From Paludibacteraceae bacterium (GTDB taxonomy: Bacteria; Bacteroidota; Bacteroidia; Bacteroidales; Paludibacteraceae): a stretch of DNA of 47,807 nucleotides. The stretch spans positions 1 to 47,807 of the forward strand of contig JAFGVL010000077.1 in assembly GCA_016938015.1 (NCBI GenBank), in the 5' to 3' direction. This document shows positions 9,964-39,176 of this stretch, piece after piece (the stretch's first letter is position 1; every line of letters starts with the position of its first letter). Under the pieces are notes generated by a model. It did no database searches. It had not been told where the DNA came from and saw nothing but the letters and a program-made list of their open reading frames with translations. The translations under genes were made by a program, and so were the position numbers.

Positions 9964-10048
9964 TGTTCAAAATAACCATTCTAATTTTTAAAATTTAGCC
10001 CGATATTTTGGGGCGTGTTTTATGCAACATTATTTAAATAACATACAG

Positions 10049-10621
10049 ATGAAAAAACTTATTCTTTCTTTACTGGTAGTAGTTTCTTTTTCAGCTATGC
10101 AAGCTCAAATAACCGACGACGATTACAAAAGTTTATTGCCCTATTTGAAAGCCGAAAATTGGAAAGGAGCTTATAAAAAATCGACTAAAATGCTGAAAAA
10201 TGTTGATGATGACAGTTCAGAAAACGCAGCACTTGTTCGTTTTGTTAATTTTTATTCGGCTGCCGGTATGGTTAAACAAGGTAAAATGGAGTTCGAGAAA
10301 ATGAAGCAAATAGCTCAACAATGGAAAGGAAAAAATATGTTGTCGGCCGATTTTGTGGCATCTATGAATCCTCAAAATACACTTAATAAAACATTTTTCT
10401 CTAATTTTGACGGAGCAAACAAAGGATTTACAACAGTAACCGATAAATTTGGAAAAATTATTCTTTTCTTAGAATACGATTTTGTAAAAAGTATCGATCC
10501 AAAAGCTTTGCATGGAACAATTGTAAGCTGTGGAGGAGTAATGAACGATATTGAAGTAAATCCTCAAATGAAAACCGATTGGATAATAAAAATTAAGGTG
10601 TCTAACGCATTTATCCGTTAA
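10049..10621 (+). CDS. Secreted protein of unknown function
   Basis: 190-residue protein I do not recognise. A signal peptide is clear: MKKLILSLLVVVSFSAMQAQ, with cleavage after AQA/MQA-type residues. An upstream in-frame ATG at 10022 would place nine residues before this signal and is rejected. The first half of the mature chain (about residues 20-110) is helical and resembles tetratricopeptide-like packing (YLKAENWKGAYKKSTKMLKNV, LVRFVNFYSAAGMVKQGKMEFEKMKQIA). The second half is beta-rich, ending in DWIIKIKVSNAFIR. No lipobox and no catalytic motif. A strong terminator lies 21 bases downstream. It is probably periplasmic. Confidence 0.75.
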   Translation: MKKLILSLLVVVSFSAMQAQITDDDYKSLLPYLKAENWKGAYKKSTKMLKNVDDDSSENAALVRFVNFYSAAGMVKQGKMEFEKMKQIAQQWKGKNMLSADFVASMNPQNTLNKTFFSNFDGANKGFTTVTDKFGKIILFLEYDFVKSIDPKALHGTIVSCGGVMNDIEVNPQMKTDWIIKIKVSNAFIR

Positions 10622-21429: not shown

Positions 21430-21882
21430 CTATCTGGTTACTTGAATTATTCTTCCCGAAACACTTTCGTAAGAACTTACCTGATATTTTCGTAGCCCTT
21501 CTTTTGCCGGCCCCGATAATCTGTTGCCGGAGCCATAGCCAATAGAAAAAACAGAACCGCAAGAGCTGCAAACTGCTTGTCCGGAATTATCAGGAACAAC
21601 ACGTACCGACGATTTTAATTCATTGGGACAGGCTAAATCAAAGGCATAATACGTTTGGTCAAAACCATAAATTACTAACAGCCCGCCATAGCCCAACGCA
21701 TCGCCATATTGTTCGGCAACTGTATAGGTTTTGTAACCGCCTATTGTGCGGAGTTCAAGAGCTTGTGTGTTTAAGTTTCGTTCCAAATAAACCGAACGCT
21801 CCGGTATGGATGATTCTTTGTAATTACAACTCCCTAAAACGAGCGTTAAGGCAAGTAAAAAAATATGATTTTTTGTTTTCAA
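21430..21882 (-). CDS. Rieske-fold-like lipoprotein lacking the histidine ligands
   Basis: 150-residue lipoprotein; the signal peptide ends in the lipobox LGSC with Cys19. The C-terminal half follows the Rieske layout: a YAFDLACPNE segment, then CSSCGSVFSIGYGSGN and a LSGPAKEGLRKYQV tail like the G-P-A-hydrophobic end of Rieske domains. However, the ligand positions read C85-x-N87-x17-C105-xx-C108, whereas a [2Fe-2S] Rieske centre needs C-x-H and C-xx-H. Both histidines are therefore replaced (by Asn and Cys). It may bind another metal, form a disulfide, or be structural. No redox partner is nearby. It converges with the glycosyltransferase. Confidence 0.7.
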   Translation of the reverse strand: MKTKNHIFLLALTLVLGSCNYKESSIPERSVYLERNLNTQALELRTIGGYKTYTVAEQYGDALGYGGLLVIYGFDQTYYAFDLACPNELKSSVRVVPDNSGQAVCSSCGSVFSIGYGSGNRLSGPAKEGLRKYQVSSYESVSGRIIQVTR

Positions 21883-22053: not shown

Positions 22054-24021
<1,968 letters not shown>

Positions 24022-24023
24022 TT

Positions 24024-24560
24024 ATGCAAATAGCTGTTTTTTGTTCATCGAGCAATAAATTGGCTCCGATCTATTACCAAGAAGCTGAAGCTTTAGGTTC
24101 TTATATTGGTAAAAATAACCATACATTAGTATATGGTGCATCAAATAACGGACTTATGGAAAGTTTGGCCAAAGGGGTAAAGTCTGAAAACGGATATGTA
24201 CTAGGAATACTCCCGTCGTATATGCGTAAGCAAGCCAGTGAATTAACCGATGAATTATTTTTTGTCGAAAATTTATCCCAACGCAAGGATATGATGATGG
24301 AATATGCAGATATTTTTATCGCTCTTCCGGGTGGGTTTGGTACATTAGACGAACTATTTGAAGTAATTGCAAGTGCTCAAGTGGGTGCTCATAACAAAAA
24401 AATAGTGCTGGTTAATACCAACCATTTTTTCAATCCCTTAATTGAACTTTTTGAGGCTATTTTTGCTCAAAAATTTTGTGATGAGTCGAATAAAAACAAC
24501 TATGTTGTTGTGAATAATGCAGCCGAATGTGCAAAATACCTGAATGACATTGCTGTGTAA
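24024..24560 (+). CDS. LOG-family nucleotide 5'-monophosphate phosphoribohydrolase
   Basis: 178-residue Rossmann-fold protein of the LOG/TIGR00730 family, which releases the base from cytokinin riboside monophosphates or, in bacteria, from nucleoside monophosphates such as AMP. The hallmark PGGFGTLDELFEV is at about residues 97-109 and QRKDMMMEYADIFIALPGG matches the conserved arginine-lysine region (MxxRK-type). It starts two bases after gyrB and is expected to share its transcript. The in vivo substrate is uncertain. Confidence 0.9.
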   Translation: MQIAVFCSSSNKLAPIYYQEAEALGSYIGKNNHTLVYGASNNGLMESLAKGVKSENGYVLGILPSYMRKQASELTDELFFVENLSQRKDMMMEYADIFIALPGGFGTLDELFEVIASAQVGAHNKKIVLVNTNHFFNPLIELFEAIFAQKFCDESNKNNYVVVNNAAECAKYLNDIAV

Positions 24561-24639: not shown

Positions 24640-25974
24640 ATGAATCTATTTTGGAAAAAGACTTTTGGAGGATTAACTCCTACCGAAAAGCTAGAGAAAG
24701 AAGAAGTTGAATTGTTGTTAGCGTATAAACGCTATTGCGACATTGAAACATCTGAACAATTGAAAGAATATACGCAATTGTTTCACGTTGTAAAATCAGC
24801 CGCTTTCAAAGAAAAAAAGAAAACATTGCAAAATCGTAAGTACAAAGATACCGAAGAGTATCGCGATTTTACAAAGTATGAAAAACTGCACAACAGTTCT
24901 AAGCTAAAACTCTACTATCAGGAGGCTGAAAGTGAACAACTAAAAGAGTTTTTAGCCTTTAAAGCAACTGCTGATTACGAAAAATTAGGAAAACCAAAAT
25001 TGGTAAAACAAGATCCCCTTCTAAAGAAAATGAGGGATTATGAAAAATCAACATCGTATAAAAATTATCTTCGTTTTCATAATTCATTTGTAGTAACAGA
25101 GTACGAAAAATTAAAAATTCTCGTTGCCAAAGAAGAATTTCAAAAAAGTAAAGCTTGGTGGGAAGACAATAACCGTTGGTTAAAAACAGATGAATACAAG
25201 CAAGAACAACGCTATTATGAACTTCAAAAAACAGACGATATTTCTTTCTACGAATCTACCGATCCAAAATCGTTTGCTAAAATAGGAGAATGGACTTTAA
25301 CTTTTGAAGACACCTTTGAAGGATCTGCTTTAGATGCCAAAAAATGGCAAAACGGCTATTACAATCGTGCTGAAAAGTTGAAAAAAGTATATTCGTTTGT
25401 TAATGAGAAACAAGCGAATACAGATGGTAAAAATATCGTTGTAGGCAATAAACTGTTGAAGATTGTTACTATGAACGAGAAACAAGAATCTGCTGCTTGG
25501 GATGCTACAAAAGGTTTTATTTCAAAAGAATTTAATTTTACATCGGGCATTATTAACTGTGGTGAAGCATTTCAACAAAAATACGGATTGGTAAAAATCA
25601 AATTGCGTATTGCCGGTTCAAAAGATATTAGTCATGCTTGTTGGTTAGGTACCGAAGGTAAGTTGCCGCATGTAAATATTTTTCATTTTAACGGAAAGAA
25701 TATTGTGGTAAATAACTATGCTCCCGAAGGCAATTCTGTTTCTGTGGTAAAAGAAGTGGTAAAAGGTATAAGCCCCAACGATTTTTATATTTACTCGCTC
25801 GAATGGACTCCAAAAGAACTAATTTGGAGCATAAATAATATCGAAGTGTTTAGATCAAGCAAGTCTGTACCTCAAGAATCGATGTTTGTAGCGTTGAATT
25901 CATTTATAAGTGAAAAACAACAAGGAGGACAAGGTAGTATGGATGTTGATTGGATAAGATTTTACAAAAAATAA
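24640..25974 (+). CDS. GH16-fold protein without catalytic residues, with helical repeats at the N terminus
   Basis: 444-residue cytosolic-looking protein (no signal peptide or lipobox). Residues about 20-205 are rich in Lys, Glu and aromatics and contain five imperfect copies of a [ST]-x-x-[LY]-[KR]-x-aromatic-like segment (starts near residues 38, 71, 98, 137, 183), predicted to be helical. Residues about 216-444 resemble a family 16 glycosidase/ConA-like sandwich: WTLTFEDTFEGSALDAKKW at the start, KYGLVKIKLRIAG, ACWLGTEGKLP, then YSLEWTPKELIWSINN and MDVDWIRFYKK. The catalytic E-x-D-x-x-E of GH16 aligns with H344-x-N346-x-x-H349, so it is not an active hydrolase of that mechanism. It may be a sugar-binding or structural protein. 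Confidence 0.65.
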   Translation: MNLFWKKTFGGLTPTEKLEKEEVELLLAYKRYCDIETSEQLKEYTQLFHVVKSAAFKEKKKTLQNRKYKDTEEYRDFTKYEKLHNSSKLKLYYQEAESEQLKEFLAFKATADYEKLGKPKLVKQDPLLKKMRDYEKSTSYKNYLRFHNSFVVTEYEKLKILVAKEEFQKSKAWWEDNNRWLKTDEYKQEQRYYELQKTDDISFYESTDPKSFAKIGEWTLTFEDTFEGSALDAKKWQNGYYNRAEKLKKVYSFVNEKQANTDGKNIVVGNKLLKIVTMNEKQESAAWDATKGFISKEFNFTSGIINCGEAFQQKYGLVKIKLRIAGSKDISHACWLGTEGKLPHVNIFHFNGKNIVVNNYAPEGNSVSVVKEVVKGISPNDFYIYSLEWTPKELIWSINNIEVFRSSKSVPQESMFVALNSFISEKQQGGQGSMDVDWIRFYKK

Positions 25975-26030: not shown

Positions 26031-26636
26031 ATGACAAGTGACGATATTAAAACGCTACTTAAGCAAGAATCTGATGCCATATTAAATATTCCTATTACTG
26101 ATGAATTTGACAAAGCAATACAGCTTATTGTTCAACAAATTCACCTCAAAAAGGGTAAGTTAGTAACCAGTGGAATGGGAAAAGCCGGTCAGATAGCGAT
26201 GAATATAGCAACTACTTTTAGCTCTACAGGTACTCCTTCGGTTTTCCTTCATCCTAGCGAAGCACAACATGGTGACCTTGGTTTGTTGCAACAAAACGAT
26301 TTATTGTTATTACTTTCTAATTCCGGAAAAACAAGAGAAATTATTGAGTTGGTGCAATTAGCTCGTAGTTTGTATCCGGATATTTTATACCTTATTATTA
26401 CTGCTAATACCGAAACAGAATTGGCTAAAAATGCTTCGGCAAAGCTTTTTACCGGTAATCCCTCAGAGGTTTGCGTATTGGGGTTATCTCCAACTACTTC
26501 TACTACAATGATGACTGTTATTGGTGATATTTTAGTTGTTGGAACGATGAAAGCAATAGGTTTTTCGGCCGAAGAATATGCCAAAAGACATCATGGAGGA
26601 TACCTCGGTAAAAAATCACGATTACTATTTGAATAA
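26031..26636 (+). CDS. Single-domain SIS sugar-phosphate isomerase, KdsD-like
   Basis: 201-residue SIS protein resembling arabinose-5-phosphate isomerase (KdsD/GutQ), which supplies arabinose-5-phosphate for KDO and lipopolysaccharide core. Conserved segments: TSGMGKAGQIAMNIATTFSSTG, SVFLHPSEAQHGDLGLLQQND (the family's HGDLG), LLSNSGKTREIIELVQLA and CVLGLSPTTSTTMMTVIGD. It lacks the C-terminal pair of CBS domains of E. coli KdsD (about 330 residues), so it is the short type known from some Bacteroidota. The KDO pathway is an inference from homology. It begins 15 bases after a terminator and is followed by the exporter gene. Confidence 0.85.
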   Translation: MTSDDIKTLLKQESDAILNIPITDEFDKAIQLIVQQIHLKKGKLVTSGMGKAGQIAMNIATTFSSTGTPSVFLHPSEAQHGDLGLLQQNDLLLLLSNSGKTREIIELVQLARSLYPDILYLIITANTETELAKNASAKLFTGNPSEVCVLGLSPTTSTTMMTVIGDILVVGTMKAIGFSAEEYAKRHHGGYLGKKSRLLFE

Positions 26637-37980: not shown

Positions 37981-38199
37981 ATGGAAAAAGAATTGATTCT
38001 AAAAAGATTAGGGGAAATAGTTAAGAGTAAAAGGAATAAACTTAATATTTCTCAAGAGGAACTTGCATTTAAATGCGGTTTTGATAGGACATATATCAGT
38101 TTAGTTGAAAGAGGTTTACGAAATATAACTTTCACAAACTTATTAATACTTTCAAAAGGATTGGATACAAATATTAGTTCATTAACAAAAGATTTATAA
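37981..38199 (+). CDS. Controller (C) protein of the second RM system
   Basis: 72-residue helix-turn-helix regulator of the C-protein kind: MEKELILKRLGEIVKSKRNK, then ISQEELAFKCGFDRTYISLVERG, then FTNLLILSKGLDTN. C proteins autoregulate and delay restriction until methylation is complete. Supporting context: it is the first gene of the unit, has a C-box just upstream, and overlaps the putative endonuclease by one base (TAATG), giving coupled translation. It is at the short end for C proteins. The predicted start of transcription coincides with the ATG, suggesting a leaderless mRNA as reported for several C genes. Confidence 0.85.
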   Translation: MEKELILKRLGEIVKSKRNKLNISQEELAFKCGFDRTYISLVERGLRNITFTNLLILSKGLDTNISSLTKDL

Positions 38200-39176
38200 T
38201 GTCACTAACACCAAAGGATACTAAACATGCTCTTCAAATTCAAGCGGGAATTGCCGGCAGAATTGCAGGACATAATTTTGAAACTAATTTAGCACAATCA
38301 ATTAACAACTTATCCTGTCCGATTGAGGTTTTTCCTTTACCAAAAAATTTAATCTATGAAAAACCTGAAATTTCTATTGCAAAAAAGGCTCTTCAGGTTT
38401 TAGGTTGGGATAAATGCCATAAAGTTGAAGCTATAGCCCTTGGTGCCCTCGCAACTGCGGAGGATGGCAAAAAATGGCTTGAAGTAAATGGAATGAGAGT
38501 AAAAGCTTGTAAAAGTGATATTCTTTTAAGAATTTATAATGAAGATTTGAAGTTGACGCAGACAGTAGGAGTTTCTATAAAACAATGTAGTAATAAAAAC
38601 CCAACGAATGCCCAATTGTATTTTACTACAGCCAGAGCTTTTTGTGAATTATTGAGAAATAACGGGATTCCTGTTTCAGATAAAGCCGTCAATGCTTTAA
38701 GGCAATTTTGTGGGGATAATGGTTTTTCCCCTGTTGATAATCCATCTGATTTAGTTGGAAGAGTATCAGACCCAAGAAGATATTTTTGGGAAGAAATAAA
38801 TGAAGAAGGAAGGCTTGAACTTGAAAAAATATTTAGTGAAAAGCAGCGAGAAATTACAAAGTTATTATTGCAAAAAGCATATATTAATGATCCCTTTACT
38901 CCTGAGCTGCTTATACATCAAACTAAAAAGATGCAACCTGGACAAGCACAAGAATATGCATTATATTCAATTGATGAATTAATAAGCCTTTCTTCGAAAT
39001 ATGCTGGATTTGAAAAGAAAAAATATAGTGTAAAAAAAGGCTCATATGTTGACCCTGTTGGTATTGAACATGATGCGCCAAGATTTGGTGTAGTTCAAAT
39101 GCAAAGAGGAGGTCAACAGCAACATCCTGAGCAACTTCAATTTAATTTGCAAGCAGGGTACTTTTATAAAATATAA
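38199..39176 (+). CDS. Putative type II restriction endonuclease of the second RM system
   Basis: 325-residue protein without a name I can give. The N terminus IQAGIAGRIAGHNFETNLAQ is typical of restriction enzyme openings, and KACKSDILLRIYNEDLK followed by QTVGVSIKQCSNKNP looks like a PD-(D/E)xK-type core with D...S-x-K in place of D...E-x-K. No HNH, GIY-YIG or PLD motif is visible. Function is inferred mainly from position: coupled to a C gene and convergent, with a 13-base overlap, with a C5 methyltransferase. It could be a different effector protein. The recognition sequence is unknown. Confidence 0.65.
   Translation: MSLTPKDTKHALQIQAGIAGRIAGHNFETNLAQSINNLSCPIEVFPLPKNLIYEKPEISIAKKALQVLGWDKCHKVEAIALGALATAEDGKKWLEVNGMRVKACKSDILLRIYNEDLKLTQTVGVSIKQCSNKNPTNAQLYFTTARAFCELLRNNGIPVSDKAVNALRQFCGDNGFSPVDNPSDLVGRVSDPRRYFWEEINEEGRLELEKIFSEKQREITKLLLQKAYINDPFTPELLIHQTKKMQPGQAQEYALYSIDELISLSSKYAGFEKKKYSVKKGSYVDPVGIEHDAPRFGVVQMQRGGQQQHPEQLQFNLQAGYFYKI

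Follow-up and report, generated by a model that had tools for sequence, protein, structure and literature searches.

A clade of Bacteroidales GH16-like proteins lacking the catalytic triad and carrying N-terminal helical repeats: candidate cytosolic pseudoenzymes

The window analyzed here is the whole stretch of 47,807 nucleotides from a Paludibacteraceae bacterium (contig JAFGVL010000077.1). In this window, gyrB, a LOG/TIGR00730 gene, the gene under study, a gene for a KdsD-like isomerase, and an EamA transporter gene follow one another in this order, all co-directionally (Table 1). The KdsD/KpsF models match the isomerase below their full-length cut-offs. The gene under study is present as a single copy in its own genome. 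Its product has relatives that span its length, with identities ranging from 72% (the Paludibacter jiangxiensis relative) down to ~30%. The dN/dS ratio is ~0.09–0.13 in congener pairs with computable dS, which is near saturation, and the protein is therefore kept by purifying selection. The relatives over the whole length, together with these ratios, establish that this is a real gene.

Table 1. Features of the pseudo-GH16 gene, its product and its neighbors in the window
Feature	Residues	Position	Strand	Basis
gyrB, DNA gyrase subunit B		22066–24021	+	ORF named by sequence; usual upstream neighbor in the window's bacterial family
LOG/TIGR00730 Rossmann-fold protein		24024–24560	+	TIGR00730, E 3.4e-43
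Gene of the pseudo-GH16 protein with N-terminal helical repeats		24640–25974	+	ORF, 444 aa; orthologues
N-terminal segment, MNLFWKKTFGGL	1–12	24640–24675	+	Hydrophobic/cationic, alike in kind family-wide
Helical repeat 1	38–105	24751–24954	+	69-aa repeat HMM, 61.5 bits
Helical repeat 2, degenerate	96–145	24925–25074	+	Repeat HMM, 25.7 bits
Helical repeat 3	152–214	25093–25281	+	Repeat HMM, 54.7 bits
Putative pseudo-GH16 β-sandwich domain	213–444	25276–25971	+	PF00722, GH16 alignment, Foldseek
Family-specific insertion, W287-D-x-x-x-G292-F293	285–297	25492–25530	+	Alignment
Former catalytic strand, P343-H344-V-N346-I-F-H349	343–349	25666–25686	+	Aligned to E-x-D-x-x-E
KdsD-like arabinose-5-phosphate isomerase		26031–26636	+	PF01380; SIS domain only, without CBS domains

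The C-terminal half of the protein is matched by PF00722 at residues 291–439 (E 1e-7; 32 bits, the cut-off being 22), and the same profile is found in 25 of the 27 family members searched, with a best E of 1.9e-15. Catalytic GH16s align with the protein from residue ~216 onward, and the best match among PDB sequences is a gut-bacterial GH16 (6t2n, E 4e-5). An AlphaFold2 (AF2) model of the full-length protein, built from three input sequences, has a mean pLDDT of 60, with values below 50 at residues 219–304 of the head. A run on the head alone was poorer still (pLDDT 47), because the alignment consists of three sequences. When this low-confidence full-length model was used as the query, Foldseek placed a Thermotoga laminarinase on top (E 8.7e-10), and all of the best 50 matches were GH16s. 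Since the model is weak, assignment to the GH16 fold rests mainly on sequence. Judged by the profiles, the relatedness of the C-terminal half to GH16 is beyond chance, in agreement with the fold proposed in the preliminary description. A VIA-align search with the full model gave Z 11–12 for galectins and other lectins of the jelly-roll type, with no GH16 among the best 50. These matches are taken as generic β-sandwich likeness, because the sequence profiles and Foldseek indicate GH16.

The residues at the former catalytic positions should be noted. We gathered 115 relatives from Bacteroidales genomes and aligned the 112 that have a readable C-terminus. Aligned column by column, H344, N346, and H349 fall in the columns of the catalytic Glu, Asp, and Glu of E-x-D-x-x-E. 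The intact motif occurs in none of the 112 aligned relatives. In the nearest ordinary GH16s found in a phylum-wide search, the E/D/E columns are occupied as expected in 29 of 29 (a motif search recovered the pattern in 28 of them). Among the 112, just four have Glu at the acid/base position, and the other two catalytic residues are absent in those four. The commonest patterns are HxNxxH (14), HxDxxK (14), QxDxxK (10), and ExDxxK (9). Position 344 is His, Gln, or Glu in 95 of the 112 (Leu, Met, and Val are also seen), position 346 is Asp or Asn in 94 (also Thr and Ser), and position 349 is Lys, Arg, or His in 84 (also Ser and others). The family-wide pattern is thus mostly [H/Q/E]-x-[D/N]-x-x-[K/H/R], of which His/Asn/His is a local form. 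The His/Asn/His triad of the preliminary description stands for the window protein but is not the general pattern of the family, and the homologues with an intact motif that it had named as contrary evidence do not appear among the 112. Separately, a set of divergent relatives (L142, L146, L129, L164, L165, L177, and L171) has Glu or Asp at the acid/base position with the other two catalytic positions gone; the motifs seen are MVSVVD, MISLLE, RTNLLE, QLTLVE, YISIFD, and CITLLE.

The changes extend beyond the triad. In a column-by-column comparison of the 112 family members with the 29 ordinary GH16s, the core landmarks F226, W236, N265, T301, S302, G316, A333, W335, P343, W389, and D437 are retained. 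On the other hand, W331, P332, W342, H360, H383, N420, G424, and G425 (query numbering), which are 93–100% conserved in GH16, are changed in the family. From GH16 structures in general, we take these eight positions to line the cleft. The characteristic cleft set of GH16, namely the two Trp residues of the Trp-Pro motif, the His by the catalytic strand, and the Gly-rich C-terminal loop, is not retained. The alignment thus supports remodeling of the cleft. The absence of the triad throughout the family and the change of most conserved cleft residues point to an inactive protein, as had been predicted. The family has invariants of its own, W287, G292, F293, K321, and N399. The first three belong to an insertion (residues 285–297) that is invariant in the family, gapped in 28 of the 29 catalytic GH16s, and located just before the TSG strand. 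K321 stands in the place of a GH16 Arg and N399 in that of a GH16 Asp. The near-invariant polar residues are N265, T301, K321, N399, and D437, and no new conserved acidic pair was found in the family alignment. Because the former catalytic positions have not drifted at random but still favor polar residues, the site is likely to have been rebuilt rather than to be decaying.

The N-terminal half consists of helical repeats. We seeded a repeat profile with one of the long relatives (L039) and refined it by iteration across the family; this gave a unit of 69 aa with the consensus SeelkeyeeLekyvnseeFkekkkelenkkfkkteeykkekeykkLkkskdikkYfkfkkskkfkeylk, each unit comprising about four to five short helices. 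The number of units per protein ranges from one to nine, three being the commonest (66 of 115 proteins); five of the 115 show zero units at the profile threshold. In the AF2 model of the window protein, the N-terminal half forms about a dozen short helices, mostly with pLDDT 70–90. Repeat 1 contains helices 39–51, 54–65, 72–84, 87–96, and 99–108 (pLDDT mostly 71–90). Repeat 2, the edge of which overlaps repeat 1, contains helices 111–117, 126–135, and 138–147, and repeat 3 contains helices 150–163, 165–175, and 184–196. The preliminary description had counted five imperfect repeats. The helical repeats are indeed present, but the repeat HMM resolves three 69-aa units, not five. The N-terminal region gave no match to Pfam, PHROG, or PDB sequences. 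Of 295 Bacteroidales genomes, 73 contain the repeat region; in 390 phylum-wide genomes, the window's own copy was recovered with one doubtful match (E 5e-6). In these samples, the repeats are all but restricted to Bacteroidales. Every complete repeat protein carries the pseudo-GH16 head. Two candidates for free-standing repeat proteins (G148:C112 and G301:C137) both end at contig ends, and none was found.

Ahead of the repeats lies a short hydrophobic and cationic segment, for which MNLFWKKLFGG and MASLKLLLGLIP are further examples in the family. The mean hydrophobicity of residues 2–13 is 0.63 over 113 relatives versus 0.13 for internal windows, and AF2 places a helix at residues 3–9 with low confidence. 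The segment may be a membrane-touching or capping helix. By hydropathy, no export signal is recognizable in the protein, the top 19-aa Kyte-Doolittle mean being 0.46, in line with its reported absence. In most of the ordinary GH16 outgroups, a signal or lipoprotein peptide is visible at the N-terminus.

Of 61 genomes from the window's own bacterial family, 40 contain a strong match to the protein; among the 295 Bacteroidales genomes sampled, 76 contain one (E 1e-20 or better). Since about one-third of the former and three-quarters of the latter have no strong match, the function is dispensable or replaceable. A maximum-likelihood tree was built from 50 family members and 29 GH16s; in it, a single branch separates the two groups with support of 100/100 and is present in all 200 bootstrap trees, indicating that the pseudo-GH16 family is one clade. 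No description of the family was found in the open-access literature; it is widespread in Bacteroidales and apparently undescribed. A mobile-element origin is not suggested: no relative was found in viral contigs or phage records, and the plasmid matches cover the C-terminal half only and are GH16s. As for a defense role, PADLOC gave only a JAB match (E 0.015), outside any sensible domain.

Of 22 loci in the window's own bacterial family, 16 have gyrB or LOG immediately 5′ of the gene and 16 have kdsA-kdsC or kdsD immediately 3′ of it. About 20 bp separate gyrB from kdsD in genome G027, where no pseudo-GH16 gene lies between the two. Other bacterial families have different neighbors, such as fmt, and an operon partner conserved across families was sought without success. 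The context hints at a link to Kdo synthesis in this one bacterial family and points to no other partner pathway.

The family shares the β-jelly-roll and the core landmarks with the laminarinase-like GH16s (PF00722; Thermotoga maritima laminarinase, 3azx). It differs from them in lacking E/D/E, in its changed cleft residues and its own insertion, in having no recognizable signal peptide, in being joined to helical repeats, and in forming a separate clade. Likewise, secreted Bacteroidetes GH16s (the gut O-glycanase 6t2n and the mixed-linkage glucanases 5nbo and 7kr6) come from the same phylum and have the same fold but are catalytically active and have no helical repeats. The nearest functional parallel is the inactive GH16 domain of the insect proteins GNBP/βGRP, which also lacks the catalytic residues and has a non-enzymatic role (PMC3981738, PMC7915573, PMC6827312). 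GNBP/βGRP are immune proteins secreted by animals, and their N-terminal domain binds glucan. The present family is bacterial, has lost the residues clade-wide, has no recognizable export signal, and carries attached helical repeats; its N-terminal half gave no Pfam match of the βGRP glucan-binding type. In a survey of ~23,000 GH16 sequences, the catalytic residues were lost in ~1% overall and in 9% of animal and fungal GH16_4 members, the GH16_4 losses not being monophyletic (PMC6827312). The present family is a whole bacterial clade without the catalytic residues, off the export route by all sequence signs, that has gained expandable repeats. It would show that a secreted carbohydrate-degrading fold can be reused for an intracellular task. 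In many Bacteroidales genomes, genes annotated as “glycoside hydrolase family 16” on the basis of PF00722 alone would thus be mistaken for enzymes.

The lost triad, the changed cleft, the apparent absence of an export signal, the selection, and the repeat arm of variable length lead us to propose a cytosolic binding or scaffold protein. We consider it most likely, with moderate confidence, that the protein is a cytosolic pseudoenzyme acting as an adaptor or scaffold that binds a partner or a small ligand. A GH16 endo-glucanase-type domain, secreted in relatives, would have been recruited once, in an ancestor of Bacteroidales, and would have lost its signal peptide. It would have come to lie behind the short hydrophobic segment and a solenoid of 69-aa repeats that is able to expand, and its catalytic triad and glycan cleft would have been rebuilt. 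The one to nine repeats would form an arm of adjustable length, and the β-sandwich head may grip a partner or a small ligand through a remodeled surface including W287, G292, F293, K321, and N399. The cytosolic location, the scaffold function, the use of the remodeled site for binding, and the membrane contact of the N-terminus are all presumed here.

The preliminary description had offered sugar sensing and scaffolding as alternatives. The scaffold half fits the variable repeat number, although this is inferential; the sugar-sensing half has found no direct support. A sensor of cytosolic glycans or sugar phosphates, in which a lectin-like head still holds a carbohydrate in the former cleft and the repeats pass the signal on or display it, is distinctly less probable than the adaptor or scaffold. 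In its favor, the head is related to a fold that binds glycans, and the VIA-align matches to galectins and L-type lectins (Z ~11–12) superpose with rmsd ~3–4 over 125–157 residues. Inactive GH16 domains occur in the animal recognition proteins GNBP/βGRP (PMC7915573, PMC3981738), and the gene frequently lies directly upstream of genes for sugar-phosphate enzymes, the 16 of 22 kds loci given above. However, most conserved cleft residues are changed along with the triad. No glycan site of the GH16 type is thus apparent, and this loss weakens the sensor reading. Moreover, it is the N-terminal domain of GNBP3 that holds the glucan, rather than the dead glucanase domain (PMC7915573), and the Kdo neighborhood does not persist outside the window's bacterial family.

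A further reading, which we regard as unlikely, is a cytoplasmic “ruler” in which the N-terminus touches the membrane, the one to nine repeats set the reach, and the dead GH16 head holds an intracellular partner or envelope precursor. This would mean, if true, that bacteria have brought the fold of a secreted polysaccharidase into the cytoplasm to serve as a structural or regulatory module.

An accessory role in Kdo/LPS-core synthesis, as a scaffold for KdsD or KdsA-KdsC from the same operon, seems rather improbable. In 16 of the 22 loci, the gene runs in the same direction as kdsA-kdsC or kdsD and lies near them, the gaps in 15 of these loci being between −4 and 104 bp. Proximity to kds genes is also seen in some loci whose upstream neighbor is not gyrB (L101, L104, L108, and L112). 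Against this, gyrB and kdsD keep their synteny without the gene in G027, and other bacterial families place it beside fmt or unrelated genes. Still less probable is an enzyme of changed chemistry, in which the H/Q/E-x-D/N-x-x-K/H/R set or other residues act on a cytosolic substrate. The polar pattern at the former catalytic positions and the new invariant residues would accord with it, but no identical polar set is retained at 344, 346, and 349; of the near-invariant polar residues, N265, T301, and D437 are landmarks common to ordinary GH16 cores, and K321 and N399 are replacements of Arg and Asp. Unconventional export of a glycan-binding protein that acts extracellularly is scarcely credible: the relatives are secreted enzymes, but no signal peptide or lipobox is seen, the N-terminus is Lys-rich and helical, and it is shifted away from signal peptides family-wide.

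Some minor observations were made in the window and at related loci. The ORFs at 10022–10621 (+, 199 aa) and 38199–39176 (+, 325 aa) have no Pfam match at E 0.001. Adjoining gyrB, the gene at 21430–21882 (−) encodes a possible lipoprotein of 150 aa with a C...CxxC pattern (CPNELKSS...CSSCGSVFSIGYGSGNRLSGPA), which gave only a weak zinc-ribbon match in Pfam and none in NCBIfam. By eye, its product resembles a Rieske-type fold in which the His ligands are replaced, and the gene also adjoins gyrB in close relatives (three loci; cluster c14). At locus L111 (cluster c4), KdsA appears, by eye in the translation, to be fused to a KdsC-type HAD phosphatase; this fusion adjoins a KdsD without CBS domains, giving a compact Kdo pathway in that bacterial family.
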